Translations under genes and position numbers: made by a program
Shown here: one piece after another, positions 52,174-63,792 of the stretch
Numbering within the stretch: position 1 is the first letter of the stretch
Layout of the letters: every line of letters begins with the position of its first letter
Source: Mucilaginibacter xinganensis
Lineage (GTDB): Bacteria; Bacteroidota; Bacteroidia; Sphingobacteriales; Sphingobacteriaceae
Reading direction: 5' to 3'
Assembly (NCBI RefSeq): GCF_002257585.1
Contig: NZ_CP022743.1
Span: 2,728,001-2,792,000 of the forward strand
DNA: 64,000 bases
The notes under the pieces: generated by a model
The model's input: only the letters and a program-made list of their open reading frames with translations
Database searches by the model: none
Told to the model about the DNA's origin: nothing

Positions 52174-53427
52174 CTAGTCCTCAGCAACCGCCCGCAGCAT
52201 TAAAGCCCCTACGGTTACATTGGTTCGGCTGTCAATAATTATGGCGCCGCCGTTTGCTTTATTGTTCTGGTAAAGGTCAAATGCCAGGGGCTCGGCCGTT
52301 TTTATAATAATGCGGCCAATATCATTCAGTTTAAAATCCTCGTTAAATTCTTTTTCAAGCGTATTGATGTTTACTTTGTAAAGGATCTCCCGGATTTTGC
52401 AGCGGGTTACCTTGCTGTTGTGCTGTATGAAATAAGTTAGTGAAGGGTCGAGGGCACGGGTATCCATCCAGCATAGGTCGGCCTCTATTAATTGCGATAC
52501 TTCAGGCAAATAGCCGGTGTTTACCAAAACGTCTCCACGGCTAATATCTATTTCATCTTTTAAATGAATAGTCACCGACATACCTGCAAATGCTTCTACT
52601 GGTTCAGCATCCAACACTTCAATCTTTTCTATAGTTGAGTGAAACCCCGAAGGGAGAACGGTTACTTTATCATTTACCTTGAACGATCCGCTCGAAACCC
52701 GACCGGCATAGCCACGGTAATCATGCAGTTCTTCTGTTTGCGGCCTAACCACCCATTGGACCGGGAAACGCGCATGTGCGGTACTATCGTCAACGGTAAG
52801 CTCAACAGACTCTAAAAATGGCAGGAGGCTTATGCCATCATACCATTTCATGTTGATAGAGGGATGAACAATGTTATCACCTTTTAAAGCACTTACAGGA
52901 ATATACTTCACATTTTTTAGTCCAACTTTATAGGCAAGCGCCTTGTAGTCATTTACAATGGTTTCGTAAATGGCTTCGCTGTAGTCAACCATATCCATTT
53001 TGTTGATACAAACTACCACCTGCTGAATTCCTAAAAGCGAAACCAGGTACGAGTGACGGATAGTTTGCTCAATAACTCCTTTGCGGGCATCAACCAATAT
53101 AATAGCCAGGTTGGCATTTGAAGCACCTGTAACCATATTACGGGTATATTGAATATGGCCGGGGGTATCAGCAATAATAAACTTGCGTTTGTCTGTCTGG
53201 AAGTACTTATAAGCTACGTCAATAGTAATACCCTGTTCGCGCTCGGCTTTAAGCCCATCGGTTAAAATGGCAAGGTCAATGCTGCCATCATCATTTTTTC
53301 TGTTCGATGTGTGTAAAGCTTCCAACTGGTCAGCAAGAATAGAATCACTGTCATAAAGTAACCTGCCAATCAGGGTACTTTTACCATCATCAACACTGCC
53401 TGCTGTTATAAATTTTAATATATCCAT
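52174..53427 (-). CDS. cysN: sulfate adenylyltransferase subunit 1 (GTPase)
   Basis: The regulatory GTPase of ATP sulfurylase, forming APS with CysD. It is a 417-residue elongation-factor-like protein: G1 loop AGSVDDGKST at 9-18, DTPGHIQYTRNM (G3) near 92 and NKMDMV (G4) near 147, followed by beta-barrel domains. It is not fused to an APS kinase (CysC) domain, which agrees with an APS-reducing pathway. Last gene of the operon, separated from cysD by a 144-base gap that holds a TTCG repeat and a long inverted repeat, so its level may be set separately. Confidence 0.97.
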   Translation of the reverse strand: MDILKFITAGSVDDGKSTLIGRLLYDSDSILADQLEALHTSNRKNDDGSIDLAILTDGLKAEREQGITIDVAYKYFQTDKRKFIIADTPGHIQYTRNMVTGASNANLAIILVDARKGVIEQTIRHSYLVSLLGIQQVVVCINKMDMVDYSEAIYETIVNDYKALAYKVGLKNVKYIPVSALKGDNIVHPSINMKWYDGISLLPFLESVELTVDDSTAHARFPVQWVVRPQTEELHDYRGYAGRVSSGSFKVNDKVTVLPSGFHSTIEKIEVLDAEPVEAFAGMSVTIHLKDEIDISRGDVLVNTGYLPEVSQLIEADLCWMDTRALDPSLTYFIQHNSKVTRCKIREILYKVNINTLEKEFNEDFKLNDIGRIIIKTAEPLAFDLYQNNKANGGAIIIDSRTNVTVGALMLRAVAED

Positions 53428-53571: not shown

Positions 53572-54477
53572 TTAAAAATATCCTCCCTTTTTACGGTCTT
53601 CCATAGCGGCCTCGCTTACTTTGTCGTCCATGCGGGCACCGCGCTCACTGATTTTTGATTCACTTATTTCGTCAATGATGTCATCAATCCGGTAAGCATA
53701 TGATTCAACAGCCGCAGTACAGGTCATATCCCCAACCGTACGGAAGCGAACATTGCGTTTTTCAATAATGTCTTCAGCATCCATATTTAAAAATGGAGAA
53801 GCCGCCATTAACTGTCCATTGCGGGTAATTACTTCCCGCTCATGTGCAAAGTATATTGAAGGCAGTTCTATTTTTTCCCTGCGGATGTAATTCCATACAT
53901 CAAGTTCGGTCCAGTTGCTGATCGGGAATACCCTTACATTTTCGCCCTTATGGATCTTACCGTTAAAAATGTTCCAAAGCTCAGGGCGCTGGCGTTTTGG
54001 GTCCCATTGGCCAAACTCGTCCCTTACCGAAAAAATGCGCTCTTTGGCCCTGGCCTTTTCTTCATCCCGGCGGGCACCACCAATACAGGCATCAAAGCCA
54101 TGTTTGGCAATGGTATCAAGCAGGGTAACCGTTTGCAGTGCATTGCGGCTTGCATTTTTTCCTTTTTGCTCCACTACTTTACCTTCGTCAATTGAATCCT
54201 GCACGTGCCCTATGATCAGTTTTTCGCCAATCCGGTTGATCATTTTGTCGCGGTACTCAATGGTTTCTATAAAATTGTGCCCTGTATCAATATGTACCAG
54301 CGGGAAGGGAAACTTACCCGGCCTGAAAGCTTTTTCGGCAAGGCGCACCAGGGTAATGGAATCTTTACCACCCGAAAACAACAGGGCAGGTTTTTCAAAC
54401 TGACCGGCTACCTCACGCAGAATATAAATAGCTTCTGCTTCTAATTCGTCTAAATAATCTAACTGATGTTTGCTCAT
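53572..54477 (-). CDS. cysD: sulfate adenylyltransferase subunit 2
   Basis: The catalytic subunit of ATP sulfurylase: ATP plus sulfate gives APS. At 301 residues the PP-loop motif SGGKDS is at 35-40 and the family motif RRDEEKARAKERIFS is near 140. The sulfate-binding region SNWTELDVWNYIRREKIELP lies near 195. Its ATG overlaps the cysH stop by four bases (ATGA), so translation is coupled. Downstream the gap with inverted repeat leads to cysN. Confidence 0.97.
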   Translation of the reverse strand: MSKHQLDYLDELEAEAIYILREVAGQFEKPALLFSGGKDSITLVRLAEKAFRPGKFPFPLVHIDTGHNFIETIEYRDKMINRIGEKLIIGHVQDSIDEGKVVEQKGKNASRNALQTVTLLDTIAKHGFDACIGGARRDEEKARAKERIFSVRDEFGQWDPKRQRPELWNIFNGKIHKGENVRVFPISNWTELDVWNYIRREKIELPSIYFAHEREVITRNGQLMAASPFLNMDAEDIIEKRNVRFRTVGDMTCTAAVESYAYRIDDIIDEISESKISERGARMDDKVSEAAMEDRKKGGYF

Positions 54478-55193
54478 TTTTCAATAACTTCATTAACCCC
54501 ATGCAATCCACACTCTTTTTTACTTTGGTCTTCCCACCACCAGCGGCCGGCCCTGAAATCTTCGCCGGGTTGTACCGCCCTGGTACAGGGCGCGCAGCCT
54601 ATGCTTGGGAAACCCCTGTCGTGCAGGGTATTATAAGGTATGTTGTATTTTTTGATATACTCTTTTACTTCTTCAAGGCTCCAACTGTAAATAGGATGGA
54701 ACTTTACCAGTTGGTTGCCTTCATCCCATTCCACGTTATCCATAACTTGGCGGTTTGCTGACTGTTCGGCGCGGATGCCGGTTATCCAACATTTGTTACC
54801 GGCCAGCGCACGCTTTAACGGCTCAATCTTACGGATTCCGCAGCACTCTTTCCGGTTTTCAACCGTCTCATAAAAGCTGCTCGGGCCTTTTGTGCTTACC
54901 ATTTGTTCAACCAGGCTTGTTTGCGGGTAATAAGCATGTACGGGTTTTCCGTAAATCTCCATGGTTCGGTTCCAAACGTAATAAGTTTCAGGGAACAGCC
55001 TCCCGGTCTCTAATGTAAATACTTTAATTGGCAGGTTGTTTGAAAATATCATGTGGATAATTACCTGGTCTTCCCAGCCAAAACTGGTTGAAAAGACTAT
55101 CTCATCATGAAAAATATCCGACAGCAGCGTTAATGCTTCTACCGGGTTAAGCCCTGTGGTTTCCTGCTTTATATGTTCTGCCAGCTCACTCAT
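54474..55193 (-). CDS. cysH: APS reductase (CysH family, [4Fe-4S] type)
   Basis: Reduces adenylyl sulfate to sulfite, taking electrons from thioredoxin. It is 239 residues. The iron-sulfur cluster motifs of bacterial APS reductases are present: CC in ENRKECCGIRK near 115 and CxxC in SIGCAPCTRAV near 203. The catalytic Cys is in KKECGLHG near the C terminus. The CC...CxxC signature separates it from the cluster-free PAPS reductases and fits the absence of an APS kinase gene in this operon. It starts 1 base after the upstream fusion gene stops and overlaps cysD by four bases. Confidence 0.95.
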   Translation of the reverse strand: MSELAEHIKQETTGLNPVEALTLLSDIFHDEIVFSTSFGWEDQVIIHMIFSNNLPIKVFTLETGRLFPETYYVWNRTMEIYGKPVHAYYPQTSLVEQMVSTKGPSSFYETVENRKECCGIRKIEPLKRALAGNKCWITGIRAEQSANRQVMDNVEWDEGNQLVKFHPIYSWSLEEVKEYIKKYNIPYNTLHDRGFPSIGCAPCTRAVQPGEDFRAGRWWWEDQSKKECGLHGVNEVIEK

Positions 55194-55194
55194 C

Positions 55195-56700
55195 TTATAA
55201 AATCTTTGTTGTAAAGGCTATAATACTTTTTACACTTATTAATATCACTATAACGCCTACCGCCATCATGATAGCTTTAGCCGAAATCCGGTTGGAGATC
55301 TTAGCCGCTATAGGCGAGGCTATTGCGCTGCCAATAACTAAACCGGCAACCGCCTCCCAATGCTTGCTGTTTAGCATGGTGATAAACGTTATTGAGCTCA
55401 TTAGCGCTATAAAGAAACGGGAGAGCTTTACAGTGCCTAGTGAAAAGCGTGGGTGGCGACCTCCCGCAATTAACGTTGACAGCACGATTGATCCCCAGCC
55501 GCCACCGCCAACTGCGTCAATAAAACCACCGCCCAAACCTAGCAGGGGAATTTTTTTTATTTTTTCGGATGATTTTTTTACGCCCGTTTTAAATGCTTTT
55601 GAAAGGATCACAATACCTAATATTAAGGTATAAACCGATACAAAAGGTTTGGTGTACTGGCTGTAATGCTCTAATGACGATAGCAGGTAAGCCCCGGTTA
55701 CGGCACCAATAATCCCCGGGATCAGCAACATTTTGAACAGTTTCCAGTTAATGTTACCCATCCGGTAATGCATCCATCCGGCTATTCCGTTGCTCATGAT
55801 CTCGGATAAGTGTACCCCCATGCTTGCGGAAGCCGGTGGCACGCCCATTGACAATGAAAACGAAGTAGAGGTAACACCGTATGACATGCCGATGGCGCCG
55901 TCTATCATAGCAAATACAAAACCCGCCGCTAAAAAGTAATAAAACTCATTAGTGATAGTTTGCGCATAAGCTCTAAATGCGGGCTCATTATACCATAATG
56001 CTGTAACCGCAATTAAAATAGACAGGATGATGGCACCCCATAGCAGCCAGATGAAATTTCTTTTCTCCGCCACTTTGGGTTCAACCAATACCGAAGTTAC
56101 CTCATTTAGCTTACGTACTTTATAAGCGAAGTCGCCGTTGAGTGAATTCCGCAGATCGCTCATTTGCTGTAAGGTAATATCAATTTCATCAGGCAGCCCA
56201 TCATATAAAACTTCTTTCAGTCGTTTGGCAATAGTTGGCGATTTACCGTTGGTTGATATGGCTATTTTAAGGTTCCCTTTTTGAACAATGGATCCCAGGT
56301 AAAAATCGCACAGATCGGGTTTGTCTGCAACGTTGATCAGCAGTTTACGGTCATGTGCCGATTGCCGGATAAAATGGTTTAATTCACTATCGTTGGTTGC
56401 GGCAATCACCAGGTCGGCATTGTCCAGATCATTGTCTGCAAATGATTTTTGAATAATTGTAAGGCCCGGATGTTCAGCAGCCAGTTCATTTACCTGCGGT
56501 AAAATTTCAAGGGCAATAACAGTCACGGTTGCAGCAGGGCTATTGTTTAAAATGGCAGTAAGTTTCTCCAAACCCACGTTGCCGCCACCGATGACTACCG
56601 TATGCAAATCATTCAGCTTTAAAAATACGGGGAACAACGGGTTATCCTTGGTATTTTCATCACTGATGGTTAAACTGCTATCCTTCGGCAACAATGTCAT
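55195..56700 (-). CDS. siroheme synthase domain fused to TSUP (TauE/SafE) permease
   Basis: A 501-residue fusion. The first 220 residues are a precorrin-2 dehydrogenase/ferrochelatase domain (MET8/CysG N-terminal type) with NAD-binding VVIGGGNVGLEKL and NVADKPDLCDFYLGS, which carries the catalytic Asp. The rest is a TSUP (TauE/SafE) permease with about eight helices, including TSTSFSLSMGVPPASASMG and LGGGFIDAVGGGGWGS, typical of the two TSUP repeats. The enzyme half finishes siroheme for the sulfite reductase; the permease half may move sulfate or sulfite. It overlaps the SUMT gene by 23 bases and precedes cysH by 1 base. Confidence 0.9.
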   Translation of the reverse strand: MTLLPKDSSLTISDENTKDNPLFPVFLKLNDLHTVVIGGGNVGLEKLTAILNNSPAATVTVIALEILPQVNELAAEHPGLTIIQKSFADNDLDNADLVIAATNDSELNHFIRQSAHDRKLLINVADKPDLCDFYLGSIVQKGNLKIAISTNGKSPTIAKRLKEVLYDGLPDEIDITLQQMSDLRNSLNGDFAYKVRKLNEVTSVLVEPKVAEKRNFIWLLWGAIILSILIAVTALWYNEPAFRAYAQTITNEFYYFLAAGFVFAMIDGAIGMSYGVTSTSFSLSMGVPPASASMGVHLSEIMSNGIAGWMHYRMGNINWKLFKMLLIPGIIGAVTGAYLLSSLEHYSQYTKPFVSVYTLILGIVILSKAFKTGVKKSSEKIKKIPLLGLGGGFIDAVGGGGWGSIVLSTLIAGGRHPRFSLGTVKLSRFFIALMSSITFITMLNSKHWEAVAGLVIGSAIASPIAAKISNRISAKAIMMAVGVIVILISVKSIIAFTTKIL

Positions 56701-57469
56701 AAAATTCTTTTATAGGTTGAAACGCAGGATGTAAAGATACCACTTCGCCAAAAATAATTAACGCAGGTGAAGTGATCTTCTTTTCTTCCACAACTTCTAC
56801 AATCGTATCTACAATACCAATGGCAACTTTCTCATCCCTGGTAGTACCGCTTTGAATTACTGCGACGGGTAATTTATTTTTTCCTTCAGCTTTAAATATA
56901 GCGGTAATTTCTTGCAGTTTATGAATGCCCATTAACACAACCACGGTAGCATTGGTACGTGCAGCCTGGTAAACATCATCTGATACTTTCCCGCTGGCAG
57001 TGGTGCCGGTAACTACCCAAAAACTTTCGCTTAAACCACGGTGCGTTACCGGGATCTGCTGCATTCCGGGCACTCCAATTGAGCTGGAGATACCGGGGAT
57101 AACCTGCGCCGGGATACTGTAAGAGGCTGCATAATCCAGTTCTTCAAATCCACGCCCAAAAACAAATGGGTCGCCGCCTTTAAGGCGTACTACGTGGCCA
57201 TAATTAATAGCATAGTCAATCATTAGCTTATTAACGGCACTCTGCGAATAGGAATGATCGCCCGAGCGTTTGCCTACGTACACGCGGGTGGCATGTGCAG
57301 GTGCAAAATCAAGCAATTCTTCATTTACCAGGGCATCGTATAAAACAACATCGGCAGTTTGCAGTGCTTTAACACCTTTAAGCGTTATCAGGTCGGCATC
57401 GCCAGGGCCTGCACCTACTAGGGTAATGCGTGGTTCTTTTATGTTTTTTTCTGTGGATGTTGTGATCAT
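56678..57469 (-). CDS. cobA: uroporphyrinogen-III C-methyltransferase (SUMT)
   Basis: First step of siroheme synthesis: uses two S-adenosylmethionine to methylate uroporphyrinogen III to precorrin-2. A 263-residue protein with VGAGPGDADLITLKG at the N terminus, VVLYDALVNEELL and the SUMT signature RLKGGDPFVFGRG near residue 95, and GISSSIGVPG near 130. It covers the CysG C-terminal function; the dehydrogenase part is on the next gene. It overlaps the sulfite reductase gene by four bases and the fusion gene by 23, so it is tightly coupled. Since it consumes methionine-derived SAM, its place in a sulfur operon is sensible. Confidence 0.96.
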   Translation of the reverse strand: MITTSTEKNIKEPRITLVGAGPGDADLITLKGVKALQTADVVLYDALVNEELLDFAPAHATRVYVGKRSGDHSYSQSAVNKLMIDYAINYGHVVRLKGGDPFVFGRGFEELDYAASYSIPAQVIPGISSSIGVPGMQQIPVTHRGLSESFWVVTGTTASGKVSDDVYQAARTNATVVVLMGIHKLQEITAIFKAEGKNKLPVAVIQSGTTRDEKVAIGIVDTIVEVVEEKKITSPALIIFGEVVSLHPAFQPIKEFYDIVAEG

Positions 57470-59559
57470 GATTGTACCAATTCCTCTCTTTTTATTTTAA
57501 CGGTATTTAAAAATTCGCCGGCGGCCTGTACGTAAACTGTTGCAAAGCTTTCAGAAGGTTCGTTTTTATTGATCTGTAAAACCAGCTCATTAAACGTTCC
57601 AGCCAGTTTTATATCACCTGTGCTTACGTAGTTGTTATCAAATTCTTTTATAACGCCTGTTTGTGTACTGGTGTTAATGTTTTTGTCGAGTAATAAAGCT
57701 TTAGCGGAGCTTACAAAGGTATTGTAAGCATGATAGATAGCATCAGCCCAGCGGCCATCGGCAAATGCATCTTTTGCCCATCCAAATTTCTCTTCAGACT
57801 CGTAAAGCAATGTGGCTACCAGGTCAATAACAACACCTGCGCATTCGCCCACACCAATTGCGGTAGCAAAGGTTTCCTGATGCCCCCAGTCAACAAACTC
57901 GTCATCGGTAAGGGTGGCAAGGTCGGCCAGTGGTTTTAGCATCTGGTAAAAATAATCCTTCCCGTTCCGGTCATAATAAGCATGGAAAGTTTCATCCGGT
58001 AAAGCTTTCGCCTGATAATCATTAAGTACGGCCCTTAAAACATGGGTGGCGCGTTTGGCAGGCACCTTAATTACTTTTTCGGCAGCCCGGCCAACGCCAT
58101 CGCCAACGGTACCTCCGCCTAAAAGTACCTGTACCGACGGTAATACCTTTACGCCTGCTTTAAGTGAACTGCCATGAAAGCCAATGTGTGCCAAACCATG
58201 CTGCCCGCATGAATTCATGCAGCCGCTTATTTTAATTTTTATTTCTTTATTATAGATCAGGTCTTCATACTCATTATAGATCACATCTTCCAGCACACGC
58301 GAAAGCGTCATACTGTTAGAAATGCCCAGGTTACAGGTATCGGTACCAGGGCAGGTGGTAACATCAGCAAGGCTATCAAAGCCAGGTGCGGACAGGTCCA
58401 GTTCAGTTAGCCCTTTATATAATAATGGCAATGCTTCTTTACGAACGTATTTAAGCAATAGACCCTGATTTTGCGTTATGCGGATCTCGTTAGCTACCAG
58501 TGGCTCAAGCACGGCTACCAGCTTGCGGGCCTTGTCTGACGGAATATCGCCGACAGGCACCTTTATATAAACACCGTAAAAACCGTTTTGCTTTTGCTCA
58601 AATACATTGGTGGCCAGCCACTGCTCATATCTAAATGGGTTATCAATCACAATGTCCCCGAAAGTTGTTTCGGCCGGGATGAAAGGCAGCGTTAAAGCTT
58701 CCCTGTTTACTGTGTATTTTTTTACTTTAAGCGCCGTTCTTTCTGCGTCGGCTAGTAACAATACCTCAGTTAATCCAATTTTTTGGATCAGGTATTTCAG
58801 GCGGGCCTTATTGCGGTTGTTGCGCTCGCCGTAGCGGTCAAAAACGCGGATGATGGCCTCAATATAGGGGATCAGCTCATCTTCGGGTAAAAAATCCTCA
58901 ACAATGTTTGCCAGTAAGGGCTGTGCACCTAAACCACCGCCAAGCAAAACTTTAAACCCTCTTTCACCTGCGTCATTTATCTTAGGTATCACACCTATAT
59001 CATGTATATAAGAGAAGGCAGTATCAGCATCGCTTGATGAAAACGAAATTTTGAACTTACGACCCATTTCCTGGCAAACCGGGTTGCGTAAAAAATACTC
59101 AAAAGTGGCGTGGGCGTAAGGCGATACGTCAAAAGGCTCAAGTGGGTCAATACCAGCGGTAGGAGATGCGGTAACATTTCGTACCGTGTTTCCGCAGGCT
59201 TCGCGCAGGGTGATATCGTCCTGCTCCAGCTCGGCCCATAATTGCGGGGTACGGTCCAGGCTTACGTAGTGTACCTGGATATCCTGGCGTGTAGTCAAAT
59301 GCAGGTTGCTGCTTGCGTATTTATCAGAAATATCGGCAATGCGCAGCAGTTGTTTAAAGGTTACCTTACCAAAAGGAAGTTTAATTCTAATCATTTGAAC
59401 GCCCGGCTGCCGCTGTCCATAAATACCCCTTGCCAAACGCAAGCTCCTGAATTTTTCGTCGTGGATCTTGCCCTCACGAAAAGCCCTGATCTTTTTTTCA
59501 AGATCAATGATATCCTGTTCAACTATCGGGTTTTCCAGTTCGGTACGAAAGCTTTGCAT
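57466..59559 (-). CDS. siroheme sulfite (nitrite/sulfite) reductase with HEPN-like C-terminal region
   Basis: Six-electron reduction of sulfite to sulfide. A 697-residue protein: the first ~560 residues carry two ferredoxin-type sulfite/nitrite-reductase repeats. The siroheme/[4Fe-4S] ligands are C-x5-C in TCPGTDTCNLGISNS and C-x3-C in GCMNSCGQHG. The substrate is taken as sulfite from context, since the fold also serves nitrite. The last ~130 residues are helical and HEPN-like (DGRWADAIYHAYNTFVSSAK). Electron donor is probably ferredoxin, since no flavoprotein CysJ is here. First structural gene of the operon, 24 bases after the attenuator terminator. Confidence 0.92.
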   Translation of the reverse strand: MQSFRTELENPIVEQDIIDLEKKIRAFREGKIHDEKFRSLRLARGIYGQRQPGVQMIRIKLPFGKVTFKQLLRIADISDKYASSNLHLTTRQDIQVHYVSLDRTPQLWAELEQDDITLREACGNTVRNVTASPTAGIDPLEPFDVSPYAHATFEYFLRNPVCQEMGRKFKISFSSSDADTAFSYIHDIGVIPKINDAGERGFKVLLGGGLGAQPLLANIVEDFLPEDELIPYIEAIIRVFDRYGERNNRNKARLKYLIQKIGLTEVLLLADAERTALKVKKYTVNREALTLPFIPAETTFGDIVIDNPFRYEQWLATNVFEQKQNGFYGVYIKVPVGDIPSDKARKLVAVLEPLVANEIRITQNQGLLLKYVRKEALPLLYKGLTELDLSAPGFDSLADVTTCPGTDTCNLGISNSMTLSRVLEDVIYNEYEDLIYNKEIKIKISGCMNSCGQHGLAHIGFHGSSLKAGVKVLPSVQVLLGGGTVGDGVGRAAEKVIKVPAKRATHVLRAVLNDYQAKALPDETFHAYYDRNGKDYFYQMLKPLADLATLTDDEFVDWGHQETFATAIGVGECAGVVIDLVATLLYESEEKFGWAKDAFADGRWADAIYHAYNTFVSSAKALLLDKNINTSTQTGVIKEFDNNYVSTGDIKLAGTFNELVLQINKNEPSESFATVYVQAAGEFLNTVKIKREELVQS

Positions 59560-59582: not shown

Positions 59583-59614
59583 AAAAAGGCCTCTTTGGCT
59601 TTGGCTAAAGAGGC
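59583..59614 (-). terminator. attenuator terminator upstream of the sulfite reductase gene
   Basis: On the minus strand GCCTCTTT (59614-59607) pairs with AAAGAGGC (59596-59589), extended by two more pairs beyond one A-C mismatch. The loop is short and CTTTTTAT follows. It lies between the leader ORF and the first structural gene, so transcription must read through it to express the operon. Confidence 0.8.
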
Positions 59615-59646
59615 TTGTATTTTAAATATAAATAGCGAAAAGCCTC
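59610..59646 (-). promoter_or_regulatory. antiterminator stem of the cys operon leader
   Basis: On the minus strand GAGGCTT (59646-59640) can pair with AAGCCTC (59616-59610), a 7-bp stem. AAGCCTC includes the first five bases of the terminator's 5' arm, so the two structures exclude each other. The upstream arm starts 2 bases after the leader stop codon, where a terminating ribosome would cover it. Confidence 0.65.
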
Positions 59647-59648
59647 AA

Positions 59649-59711
59649 TTAATTGCCGTACATATGGCAGTGCATTATGGCTTCAAAGTAATTGTAAATT
59701 GTTGTTTTCAT
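59649..59711 (-). CDS. leader peptide of the sulfate-assimilation operon
   Basis: Twenty codons from ATG to TAA, starting 12 bases after a -7 box. The peptide begins MKTTIYNYFEA and ends in IMHCHMYGN, with Cys15 flanked by Met13, His14, His16 and Met17. The stop codon abuts the antiterminator arm. Cysteine and methionine are the end products of the pathway, so ribosome stalling at codons 13-17 when charged tRNA is short would leave the antiterminator arm free. That is the geometry of Trp-type attenuators. The peptide itself may have no role. It is too short for the usual gene callers. Confidence 0.7.
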   Translation of the reverse strand: MKTTIYNYFEAIMHCHMYGN

Positions 59712-59723
59712 TTTTCGTAGTGA

Positions 59724-59731
59724 CAAATATA
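59724..59731 (-). promoter_or_regulatory. -7 promoter box of the cys operon
   Basis: The minus strand reads TATATTTG, an exact TAnnTTTG, 12 bases upstream of the leader ATG. No TTG lies at -33, which fits a promoter that needs help or is under negative control. Confidence 0.55.
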
Positions 59732-59739
59732 TACATACT

Positions 59740-59757
59740 ATACGGAAGTTGTCGTAT
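59740..59757. promoter_or_regulatory. inverted repeat overlapping the cys promoter
   Basis: ATACG-GAAGTTGT-CGTAT, an inverted repeat with 5-bp arms and an 8-base spacer, lies just upstream of the -7 box. Its place in the -15 to -33 region makes it a candidate operator, perhaps for the Rrf2 regulator encoded at 63229. It is not repeated near the other genes. Confidence 0.35.
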
Positions 59758-60197: not shown

Positions 60198-63122
60198 ATG
60201 AGTCAAAAAGTACCCCTATTTCTCATGGGAGCATTTATTTTGTTCTGTTCCCCAATTTTTGCCCAAAAAATAACCGGGACTGTTACTGGCGCAGGCAAAC
60301 CTGTCGCCGGATCTAGTGTACAGGCCACACCTTCCGGAACAGGTACCGCCACCGATGGTGATGGGAAATATAGCCTTGCGCTAAAAGCCGGTATCTACAA
60401 GGTAACGGTTTCAGCCATTGGCTTTGAAAAGAAAACCGTGAACGTGCAGCTTGCGGATGGCGAAAGCAAAGTATTAGATGTTGAACTTAATCCGTCTTCT
60501 GAATCATTGAAAGAAGTAATTGTAGTAGGTAGTCGTGGCGGCGGGCGAACCAAAATGGATTCGCCGGTGCCTGTAGATGTGATAAGTGTAAATTCAGTCA
60601 GCGCAAGTACTGCAAAGCCCGATTTGATGAGCCAGTTAAACCAGGCTGTCCCATCATTCAATTATAATAAACAAAGCGGGGGCGACGGTTCTGACGCTAT
60701 TGATTTTGCCAGTTTGCGTGGTCTGGGCTTCGACCAAACACTGGTGTTGGTTAACGGTAAACGGCGTCACTTATCTGCCTTTGTGAATCAGGTAGGTACC
60801 CGTGGCAGGGGAAATAGTGGTACCGACTTAAATGCCATACCAGAAGCTGCTATTGATCATGTTGAGATTTTACGTGATGGTGCGTCAGCACAATATGGTT
60901 CTGATGCTATCGCAGGTGTTATTAATCTTGTGTTGAAAAAAGATGTTAACCACTTGAATGTTAATATCGGTGGTAGTGGCTATTATGACCATAAGTATAA
61001 TACATTGAACAATGTTGACCCAAGCCAATATTACACAGGTTCGCAGCTTGATGGTAAAACTTTTACTTTAGGGTTGGACTATGGAGTGCTAATAGGCAAA
61101 AATGGCGGGTTTATTAATTTTGGCGGCAACTTTATGAGCCAGGGTAAAACTTTTAGAGCCGTACCGCAAACAAATTGGGACACAAACCCTAATGCTCTAA
61201 GTGTTGATGCCTGGAGAAGGGCTTTTGGCGATGGATCTGTTACCTCAGGCGGAGGAATGTATAATATGGAAATTCCCCTTGCCGGTACCAAAACTACTTT
61301 TTATTCATTTGGCGGCTACAACTATAAACACTCAAATGTATATGCATGGACACGCAGATGGAGCAGTACCAGCAACCACATAAAATTCCCTACCGATGCA
61401 AATGGTAACTTAATATTTGTACCCGGTATTATGCGTGTATTTGATCCTTCACCAGGCGGATTAGATACCGCTAATGTATATTACAATCCGCAGGAAGATG
61501 TTTACATAAAAGACATGTCTAACGCATTGGGTTTAAAAGGAACTATCGGCGACGGCTGGGATTGGGACCTGAGCAACAATATAGGATATAATGATTTTCA
61601 TTATTGGGGTAATGACACCTTTAATGCTTCCCTGCCTTTACCAGAACAATCAACCAAAACAAGGTTTGATGACGGAGGATTCAGTTTTTTACAAAATACG
61701 GCCAATTTAGATGTAACTAAGCGTTTTGCACATGTGGCTCAAGGGTTAACGCTATCATTTGGTGCGGAATTTAGATATGAAAGGTATAAATTATATGCAG
61801 GTGAACCGGATTCGTACAGAAACGGCGGGGCACTTTACACCGGACCGACAATATATAATGACGATGGTAGCGTTGCCTTAGCTAATGGCGATGCCAAAGC
61901 ATCTGGCTCTGAAGGATACCCTGGTTATCAACCTACTGATGCAAGTACATCTCATAGAACAAATGAGGCAGCTTATATAGAGGGCTCTTTAGATGTAACT
62001 AAAGCATGGCTGGTTGATGGTGCTGCCCGATTTGAACACTATTCTGATTTTGGAGGTGTAAGTACAGTGAAATTAGCAACGCGTTACAAAGTAACTGACA
62101 ATTTTAATTTAAGAGGCTCATTTAGCACAGGTTTTAGGGCACCCTCCTTACAGCAAATGAATTTCAGTAATACCAATACTAATATCATAGCCGGTCAATT
62201 GGTCTACGCAAAATTGGTTCCAAATTATTCGGAAGCCGCCCGTCAGGTGGGAATCCCTAAACTTACACAGGAAACTTCAATTAATGAGAGTTTAGGGTTT
62301 ACATGGAAACCGGCCCCTGGTTTTAACTTTACTGTTGATGGTTACATTATTAAAATTAAGAACAGGATAGTGATTACAGGTAGTTTTGATACCACAGTAA
62401 CAGCAATAAAAAATTATTTGATAGACAATAACGTAAAAAGCGCCAACTTCTTTACCAATGCTGTTAATACAACCAATACAGGCCTTGATATGGTATTGGA
62501 TTACCACAAGTCCTGGGGGAAAAATAGGTTCACAGGGTTACTTGCCGGGAATATACAGAATATAACTATCGACAAAATTAATATCCCTGCCGCGTTGAAC
62601 GATACTTATGCCCATCAACAAGCTTACTTCAGCACAAGAGAAGCTGCTTTCTTAACAGCATCAGCTCCTCACGCGAAATTTTCGTTAGGTCTTGAATATG
62701 GATACGATAAATTCGCGGTTGGTACACATATTACATATTTTGGTAAATTGACTACCCAGGGCTTTGGATATAACAGTGTGCCCGGAGCAAATCCGGACGG
62801 ACCCGGAGGCGCTAATACCTCCGCCTCCGGCAATGGATGGGATCCTTATGTGGAATTAGATAACGGAAAAGGAGTTGTTCCCGAAAATTTTGTTTTCCAC
62901 GGAAAAGCTACCACCGATTTATATGTATCATATAAAATAACTAAGCAAATATCATGGACTGCCGGCGTAGATAATATATTTAATGTACATCCGGACTTAG
63001 CTGTCACTGAAGGCGCTCATCAAGCGTCATGGGGCGATAGCGAATCTGGAGGTCCATTCGATGCTGTTCAAATGGGCTTCAATGGAACGAGAATATTTAC
63101 TAAGCTGGCATTCCATTTTTAG
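60198..63122 (+). CDS. TonB-dependent outer-membrane receptor
   Basis: A 974-residue outer-membrane transporter with a signal peptide ending near IFAQK. A carboxypeptidase-regulatory-like domain (about 23-105) precedes the plug, which has VVVGSRGGGRTKMDSPVPVD and RDGASAQYGSDAIAGVINLV (about 110-255). The barrel ends with KLAFHF, the C-terminal Phe expected. It has no STN domain and no SusD partner, so it is not a glycan SusC pair. It lies head-to-head with the sulfate operon and near an Rrf2 regulator, which suggests a sulfur compound, siderophore or cobalamin as cargo; the substrate cannot be read from sequence. Confidence 0.94.
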   Translation: MSQKVPLFLMGAFILFCSPIFAQKITGTVTGAGKPVAGSSVQATPSGTGTATDGDGKYSLALKAGIYKVTVSAIGFEKKTVNVQLADGESKVLDVELNPSSESLKEVIVVGSRGGGRTKMDSPVPVDVISVNSVSASTAKPDLMSQLNQAVPSFNYNKQSGGDGSDAIDFASLRGLGFDQTLVLVNGKRRHLSAFVNQVGTRGRGNSGTDLNAIPEAAIDHVEILRDGASAQYGSDAIAGVINLVLKKDVNHLNVNIGGSGYYDHKYNTLNNVDPSQYYTGSQLDGKTFTLGLDYGVLIGKNGGFINFGGNFMSQGKTFRAVPQTNWDTNPNALSVDAWRRAFGDGSVTSGGGMYNMEIPLAGTKTTFYSFGGYNYKHSNVYAWTRRWSSTSNHIKFPTDANGNLIFVPGIMRVFDPSPGGLDTANVYYNPQEDVYIKDMSNALGLKGTIGDGWDWDLSNNIGYNDFHYWGNDTFNASLPLPEQSTKTRFDDGGFSFLQNTANLDVTKRFAHVAQGLTLSFGAEFRYERYKLYAGEPDSYRNGGALYTGPTIYNDDGSVALANGDAKASGSEGYPGYQPTDASTSHRTNEAAYIEGSLDVTKAWLVDGAARFEHYSDFGGVSTVKLATRYKVTDNFNLRGSFSTGFRAPSLQQMNFSNTNTNIIAGQLVYAKLVPNYSEAARQVGIPKLTQETSINESLGFTWKPAPGFNFTVDGYIIKIKNRIVITGSFDTTVTAIKNYLIDNNVKSANFFTNAVNTTNTGLDMVLDYHKSWGKNRFTGLLAGNIQNITIDKINIPAALNDTYAHQQAYFSTREAAFLTASAPHAKFSLGLEYGYDKFAVGTHITYFGKLTTQGFGYNSVPGANPDGPGGANTSASGNGWDPYVELDNGKGVVPENFVFHGKATTDLYVSYKITKQISWTAGVDNIFNVHPDLAVTEGAHQASWGDSESGGPFDAVQMGFNGTRIFTKLAFHF

Positions 63123-63228: not shown

Positions 63229-63666
63229 TTATTCGTTTAATAACAGCGTGCTTTCCCTACTGATCACATCCGCAATACTTGTTTCTGATAATATTTTTAC
63301 GGTTGCATCCCTAACTTCTATAAACACGTCGCGAATGCCGCAGGTGGTTTCCTGGTGACACTCATCGCATTTGTGGTAAAAGTTGAGGCTGGCGCATGGT
63401 ACCATGGCTATAGGGCCATCAGTAATCCTCATTATTTGTACCAGGTAAATATCCTTAGCGTCTTTATTCAGACTGTAACCGCCTCCCGCACCCTTTTTAC
63501 TGTAAAGAAAGCCTGCGTTGCGCAAGTCTAAAAGAATCTGTTCCAGGAATTTTTTAGGAATTTTTTCTTCCTCAGCAATTTTTGAGATTTGCATTGGAGG
63601 TTTATCGGCATTTTTCCCCAGCACTACCAGGGCCTTAATTGCATACTTTGTTTTTTTCGATAGCAT
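63229..63666 (-). CDS. Rrf2 family transcriptional regulator
   Basis: A 145-residue winged-helix repressor-type protein starting MLSKKTKYAIKALVVLGKN, the canonical Rrf2 N terminus. The frame is open to 63735, but the -7 box at 63685-63692 lies downstream of that start, so ATG at 63666 is right. The HTH includes PMQISKIAEEEKIPKKFLEQIL. Its sensor segment contains Cys in VPCASLNFYHKCDECHQETTCGIRD, four cysteines that may bind an iron-sulfur cluster. Rrf2 proteins such as CymR and IscR control cysteine or Fe-S metabolism. Lying next to the sulfate operon and receptor, it is a candidate regulator of both. Confidence 0.9.
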   Translation of the reverse strand: MLSKKTKYAIKALVVLGKNADKPPMQISKIAEEEKIPKKFLEQILLDLRNAGFLYSKKGAGGGYSLNKDAKDIYLVQIMRITDGPIAMVPCASLNFYHKCDECHQETTCGIRDVFIEVRDATVKILSETSIADVISRESTLLLNE

Positions 63667-63684
63667 ATTTAAAAATAGCGCTTG

Positions 63685-63692
63685 CAAAGATA
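63685..63692 (-). promoter_or_regulatory. -7 promoter box of the Rrf2 gene
   Basis: The minus strand reads TATCTTTG, an exact TAnnTTTG, 18 bases before the ATG at 63666. It excludes the upstream in-frame start at 63735. Confidence 0.5.
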
Positions 63693-63792
63693 AGTAAAAG
63701 AATTTGTGTTGTTTTATCTGTTGATAAGGCATCAACCAATTGTAAAGATAATGTTTTATTTAATGTGCAAATATTTCTGTACAAAACTGATT

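Follow-up and report, generated by a model that had tools for sequence, protein, structure and literature searches.

What decides whether transcription continues into the sulfate-assimilation operon of Mucilaginibacter xinganensis, and which amino acids would be read in the decision? The locus lies on the minus strand of a 64,000-nucleotide stretch of DNA (the window), where a leader stands about 150 bases ahead of six genes. A preliminary description of this leader had listed a -7 box, a 20-codon ORF with a Met/Cys run, the repeats GAGGCTT and AAGCCTC and a terminator, placed ahead of a sulfate operon. All of these are present on the minus strand at the positions below, and the six-gene sulfate-assimilation operon downstream is confirmed.

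The leader and its operon

The leader consists of the following elements, with the evidence on which each rests.

59739 to 59754, minus strand: upstream of the -7 box, a conserved block resembling CTACnATTTCCnTATA, which reads CGACAACTTCCGTATA in the window
59724 to 59731, minus strand: -7 promoter box TATATTTG (consensus TAnnTTTG); sequence
59649 to 59711, minus strand: leader ORF of 20 codons, MKTTIYNYFEAIMHCHMYGN, with ATG at 59711 and stop codon TAA at 59651-59649; sequence and recurrence in relatives
59679 to 59684, minus strand: strand 1 (GAAGCC, codons 10-11), the anti-antiterminator, which pairs with strand 2; fold and covariation
59661 to 59675, minus strand: putative regulatory codons Met13-His-Cys15-His-Met17 (Met13 59675-59673, Cys15 59669-59667, Met17 59663-59661); sequence, frame enrichment in relatives (Cys and Met) and modelled pairing
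59639 to 59646, minus strand: strand 2 (GAGGCTTT), directly past the stop codon; sequence, fold and pairing test
59610 to 59616, minus strand: strand 3 (AAGCCTC), whose partner is strand 2 as antiterminator or strand 4 as terminator
59583 to 59614, minus strand: intrinsic terminator GCCTCTTT...AAAGAGGC plus U-run (arms GCCTCTTT at 59614-59607 and AAAGAGGC, which is strand 4, at 59596-59589; U-run at 59587-59583); sequence and fold

GAGGCTT occupies 59646-59640, two bases past the stop codon, with AAGCCTC 23 bases downstream of it. The antiterminator and the terminator share strand 3 and are mutually exclusive. The fold of 59711-59583 that the preliminary description had proposed as a check was run with RNAfold and gave -29.2 kcal/mol (z -3.24), with none of 200 shuffles as low, and the 43-nt terminator stretch gave -13.7 kcal/mol (z -4.10, 0/200 shuffles as low). 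Inclusion of promoter-side bases gave z -2.65 (2/200 shuffles as low), and the fold from the stop codon onward gave z -2.07 (7/200). The fold also contains a stem that had gone unmentioned, in which GAAGCC (59684-59679) pairs with GGCTTT past the stop. This 1:2 stem completes the Trp-type set of 1:2, 2:3 and 3:4 in the window. Thus the Trp-type layout stands with its elements as originally named, the 1:2 stem having been overlooked. A search of both strands of the 64-kb window against 4227 Rfam families, a library that includes T-boxes and SAM riboswitches, gave no matches at gathering score, and a riboswitch or T-box was rejected on this basis.

The operon and its neighbours are as follows.

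57466 to 59559, minus strand: first operon gene, sulfite reductase-like, 697 aa (NirA/nitrite/sulfite reductase models, all under curated cut-offs)
56678 to 57469, minus strand: uroporphyrinogen-III C-methyltransferase (siroheme), by profile match
55195 to 56700, minus strand: siroheme synthase N-terminal domain with a long C-terminal extension
54474 to 55193, minus strand: CysH, (phospho)adenylyl-sulfate reductase
53572 to 54477, minus strand: CysD, sulfate adenylyltransferase small subunit
52174 to 53427, minus strand: CysN, sulfate adenylyltransferase large subunit
60198 to 63122, plus strand: TonB-dependent receptor gene, between the Rrf2 gene and the operon
63229 to 63735, minus strand: Rrf2 gene, CymR/IscR-like (NCBIfam superfamily model over cut-off, CymR and IscR models below)

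The gene next upstream of the leader, the TonB-type receptor, is divergent, and the leader terminator therefore does not close that gene. The siroheme synthase extension is hydrophobic and matches NF007909 (PRK10621, hypothetical protein) weakly, at 7.6e-5, and we take it to be possibly a fused carrier.

Leaders and promoters in related genomes

The comparison covered 80 loci, made up of the window and 79 of its 80 best sulfite-reductase matches (L026 was dropped, its upstream end being absent); by title, the best-match loci are mostly Mucilaginibacter and Pedobacter, with some Cytophagales and Chitinophagales. Leaders were called by a rule blind to Cys, as the first ATG or GTG 3-20 nt past a [TG]AnnTTTG box that opens an ORF of 10-45 codons. 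By this rule a leader ORF is found in 41/80 loci, and 39 of the 41 hold Cys (the exceptions are L009 and L034), 36 of them within the last ten codons. The small ORF and its Cys codons, whose conservation the preliminary description had proposed to check, recur in these relatives. The same rule applied elsewhere in the loci yielded 204 background ORFs, 89 with Cys, and CC or CxC is present in 27/41 leaders versus 14/204 background ORFs. Cys codons number 93 in the leaders compared with 44.5 +- 5.5, and at most 62, in 300 dinucleotide shuffles, with one to six per Cys leader and runs of up to three.

Counts in frames 0/1/2 of the 39 Cys leaders are 93/54/10 for TGY, 66/11/2 for ATG and 28/15/36 for CAY. 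Cys and Met codons therefore look selected in frame and His codons do not, which fits the original suggestion of Cys- or Met-tRNA as the signal. His was rejected as a signal (29 codons, against 34.9 +- 5.4 in shuffles). Met codons number 68 versus 31.1 +- 4.6 in shuffles that carry the leader's own composition. Leaders and shuffles hold about equally many ATGs in total, and part of the Met signal could come from a shortage of ATGs out of frame. Internal Met makes up 8.0% of leader residues versus 2.1% in background ORFs, and 52/66 internal Met codons are three codons or fewer from a Cys (35.1 +- 3.8 when permuted, highest 47 in 1000), both before and after the Cys run. As in-frame ATG is enriched and clustered around the Cys codons, Met may be sensed too. 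Met in place of Cys is not preferred (Met is in the last ten codons of 27/41 leaders, Cys in 36/41), and Met is kept as a likely second signal.

Some of the 39/80 loci with no leader by rule have Cys leaders by eye, and on the protein tree leader presence takes at the fewest 13 changes, counted from hand labels. In the nested group of L017 and L028-L030 the promoter block is present and the leader absent, and their sister L016 has a CCC leader without a terminator; side by side, these loci plausibly form a series of stepwise attenuator loss. L009 has kept leader and terminator, with no Cys codon in the leader. Four Pontibacter loci (L056, L057, L060, L061) have short ORFs rich in Cys but no convincing pair of terminator and antiterminator, and these ORFs may be a sensing part acting through another mechanism. 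In a phylum sample of 158 genomes, 20 near-full-length sulfite-reductase homologues were found, the window's own included. By eye, five of the other 19 have a Cys leader (L120-L123 and L138, the last with a run of five Cys codons) and 14 do not, several of the latter because the gene follows other sulfur genes, also by eye.

Elsewhere in the M. xinganensis genome, no leader was seen upstream of cysE-cysK or ilvD (one locus each), the former thus having no Cys leader. Upstream of hisG in the his operon (L139, G000:C1:2830900-2832400) seven His codons stand in a leader ORF, MNGYTLYHLHLHHHHHVVIR; no clear intrinsic terminator follows it.

The TAnnTTTG box is placed at -12 to -5 in the promoter description of PMC9723704, so that a start codon four bases past the box coincides with +1. 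A start codon at this predicted +1 is found in 16/41 leaders versus 14/204 background ORFs, and predicted leaderless members occur in 8/18 hand-drawn clades; the rule limits offsets to 3-20, so short UTRs are built in, and the peak at offset four is not. In the window the ATG lies 12 bases past the -7 box, and transcription is predicted to start at about 59719, with a 5' UTR of about 8 nt. Leaderless mRNAs are put at 5.5% in F. psychrophilum (PMC9723704) and UTRs shorter than 10 nt at about 3.7% in B. thetaiotaomicron (PMC7366714), and Bacteroidota are described as having no Shine-Dalgarno sequences (PMC9723704).

The CTACnATTTCCnTATA-like block is kept in the 41 rule-leader loci and recognisable in most of ten inspected loci that have no rule leader. 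An Rrf2 gene falls within the upstream flank (up to 4 kb) in 36/79 best-match loci, at 144-446 bases from the sulfite reductase in 30 of the 36. Judged from this arrangement, promoter control by Rrf2 probably operates in addition to attenuation. In L002-L004 the gap from Rrf2 to the operon is 3.3-3.4 kb, similar in size to the TonB-containing gap of the window.

Alternative stems and the proposed switch

A hairpin with a T-run follows 39/41 rule leaders (exceptions L016 and L034). The 2:3 pairing could be scored in 38 of these (37 with Cys, plus L009; L036 has a hairpin with no spacer to score), by comparing the best pairing of the segment past the Cys run with the terminator 5' half against shuffled spacers. 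It reaches p<0.05 in 12/38 loci and is singly non-significant in 26/38 (median 0.12); the pooled value (Fisher 3.6e-11) takes loci as independent and is too small, since related genomes are counted as separate loci. The 1:2 pairing reaches p<0.05 in 11/38, and this stem is shared by the window and seven near relatives. Each group has its own strand 2 core, GAGGCTT in the window group, GGCTG or GGCTA in a second Mucilaginibacter group, GGACTG in Pedobacter and GGAGGCTG in Parapedobacter, and in all four it sits around or just past the stop codon. Thus the layout is kept between genera while the letters change. Seventeen further leaders were picked by hand from loci missed by the rule or from the phylum sample, of which 13 were scorable (L060 and L061 have no terminator and L056 no spacer; L080 was also left unscored). 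Here strand 2 lies inside the ORF, past the Cys run, and 2:3 pairing has p<0.05 in 7/13, including Adhaeribacter, Rhodocytophaga, Chryseolinea, a Fulvivirgaceae genome and L138 from another family; the Chitinophaga leader has p = 0.083.

One strand 3 base is C or U in 14 aligned loci, and its partners in both strand 2 and strand 4 covary with it (strand 2-strand 3: GC 8, AU 5, GU 1; strand 3-strand 4: CG 6, UA 6, other 2), with two changes on the protein tree. Covariation of the whole 2:3 helix in A1 is modest (37/500 shuffles reach the score), that of the terminator is reached by 2/500 shuffles, and that of the 1:2 stem in the window and seven near relatives by 3/500. The 2:3 helix of the window group (A2) hardly varies and has no covariation; when slid by +1 to +3 columns it gives a higher covariation score with fewer cells paired.

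The effect of ribosome position was modelled by hiding 30 nt (18 upstream of the A-site codon and 12 starting with its first base) in a transcript cut before strand 4. In this folding model, moving the ribosome from the stop back to the Cys run raises the upstream pairing of strand 3 in 30/37 leaders and lowers it in two. Mean paired bases over the 37 leaders are 9.8 at Cys codons and 9.5 at internal Met codons (32 leaders), compared with 2.6 at the stop. In 31/37 leaders no Cys codon lies past the last permissive codon, in 6/37 the last Cys does, and in 3/37 the stop is as permissive as the Cys codons. In the window, antiterminator pairing peaks at codons 12-15 and declines from Met17 to the stop (12, 8, 4 bases). 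The modelled ribosome thus frees the antiterminator when at the Cys codons and hides it when at the stop. With strand 4 present and the ribosome at Cys, the terminator is still favoured at equilibrium (0.79 in the window; below 0.5 in 7/37), so read-through must rest on co-transcriptional timing, with the antiterminator formed first, as in textbook attenuation.

The sulfate-assimilation operon is very probably controlled by a Trp-type (ribosome-mediated) transcription attenuator, as the preliminary description proposed; the recurring ORF, frame-specific codons, terminator, covarying antiterminator and modelled codon fit all argue for it. We infer the following course of events. RNA polymerase would transcribe a leader whose short ORF starts almost at the 5' end. 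With ample Cys-tRNA, and probably Met-tRNA, the ribosome would reach the stop at 59651-59649 and cover strand 2; strand 3 would then pair with strand 4, forming the terminator, and transcription would end near 59583. If charged Cys-tRNA (or Met-tRNA) were short, the ribosome would halt at about codons 13-15 and cover strand 1. Strand 2, left exposed, would form its helix with strand 3 ahead of the synthesis of strand 4, and polymerase would go on to transcribe the sulfite reductase gene, the siroheme genes and cysHDN. In an untranslated leader, termination would be favoured by the 1:2 stem.

Three other accounts of the leader can be set against this attenuator. The ribosome might be arrested by its nascent peptide through a ligand (cysteine, S-adenosylmethionine, or a metal on His-Cys-His) instead of reading tRNA charging through codons; ligand-dependent stalling peptides such as TnaC are on record, and the window peptide has an HCH core. 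This is very improbable, as the letters outside the Cys/Met run are unconserved between groups, Cys leaders hold anywhere from 1 to 6 Cys codons and His is unenriched, so that conservation is codon-like and not peptide-like. Still less probable is a protein or small-molecule riboswitch acting on the terminator after initiation, the small ORF then being a bystander. Alternative pairings around a terminator would also fit a riboswitch, and the CymR/IscR-like Rrf2 gene is nearby; however, Rfam is empty in the window, the Cys/Met codons are frame-specific, no aptamer-like conserved stretch was seen by eye between leader and terminator, and the promoter element is the likelier site of action for Rrf2. 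A constitutive terminator or pure chance, with fortuitous repeats and a meaningless ORF, is the least probable of all. Short two-copy repeats can arise fortuitously, and among 399 family genomes the literal codon pattern is matched perfectly in the window only (with one or two mismatches in 46 genomes, its own included), but the layout recurs with other letters in Mucilaginibacter, Pedobacter, Parapedobacter, Adhaeribacter, Chryseolinea and others, and one base covaries in both alternative stems.

Within Trp-type attenuation, the signal itself may be read in two ways. The leader may sense Cys alone, as uncharged Cys-tRNA, with the Met codons a by-product, being tolerated in-frame ATGs or restart codons; this is a serious prospect, falling only somewhat short of an even chance. 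The near-universal presence of Cys in the rule leaders, its runs (at most three codons there, five in L138), and the shuffle-like total of ATGs all agree with it, and the depletion of out-of-frame ATGs (11 and 2 versus about 25 each) would push ATGs into frame. Against it stand the excess of internal Met over background and its clustering on both sides of the Cys run. The fuller reading is a dual attenuator, in which the mixed Met/Cys run would integrate Cys-tRNA and Met-tRNA charging on an mRNA with little or no 5' UTR, in a phylum that does not use Shine-Dalgarno initiation, and beneath an Rrf2-type promoter layer, the scheme being old in Bacteroidota (Sphingobacteriales, Cytophagales, Chitinophagales), with its layout kept and its letters turning over. 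This whole is put forward tentatively, as a possibility a little below evens.

Comparison with known attenuators

The leaders of E. coli trp, his, pheA and thr are Trp-type leader-peptide attenuators. The leader described here resembles them in its short ORF with codons for the pathway product, its strands 1-4, its terminator and a stop codon adjoining strand 2, and differs in its Cys and Met codons, the sulfate operon it precedes, the Bacteroidota promoter and a very short or absent predicted 5' UTR.

Leaders with Cys codons are described from other phyla. In the Rhodobacterales cysS leader uORFC-8-2, tandem Cys codons, usually at 14-15, are accompanied by two stems and a terminator with a U-run, and stalling on uncharged Cys-tRNA is predicted (PMC8632094). 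Compared by description, the two share a leader uORF with Cys codons, stems and a terminator with a U-run; however, uORFC-8-2 stands ahead of cysteinyl-tRNA synthetase in Alphaproteobacteria, and its description mentions no Met codons. Cys leader peptides are reported from Mycobacterium, P. acnes and B. longum, where, according to the account of them, a conserved terminator hairpin was not found (PMC1262725), and mycobacterial "polycysteine-encoding leaderless short ORFs" are described by Canestrari 2020, as cited in PMC13236596. As described in these sources, the actinobacterial leaders are alike in that a short ORF ahead of cys operons holds Cys codons in runs, and may be alike in a leaderless start, which is predicted for part of the leaders here, whereas the terminator/antiterminator pair is a difference, being present here.

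Within the phylum, the section of PMC9723704 on attenuation gives "strong clues" for leader-peptide attenuation upstream of amino-acid biosynthesis operons in F. psychrophilum, likewise deduced from structured 5' regions, and names no Cys or sulfate operon among them; such attenuation is also hinted at for B. thetaiotaomicron (PMC7366714). The earlier remark that no system of this kind was known in Bacteroidota was therefore too broad as to leader-peptide attenuation, and holds, among the matches listed, for a Cys/Met or sulfate-operon case. The literature matches listed contain no Cys or Cys/Met attenuator in Bacteroidota, although older surveys (Lopatovskaya 2010) may predict some, and no attenuator at a Bacteroidota sulfate operon.

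The locus offers a concrete, testable switch for sulfate assimilation in a phylum with few attenuators described among those matches. Joint reading of Cys and Met, if true, would be a new signal combination among the matches listed. A leaderless start, if true, would provide a natural assay of how early ribosomes load on Bacteroidota transcripts, because Trp-type control needs translation that keeps pace with polymerase. The Cys/Met combination and the leaderless start are the possible novelties of the mechanism. Attenuation as a principle is known from other bacteria; new here are the set of genes it would control, the group of bacteria that carries it and, possibly, its double signal.
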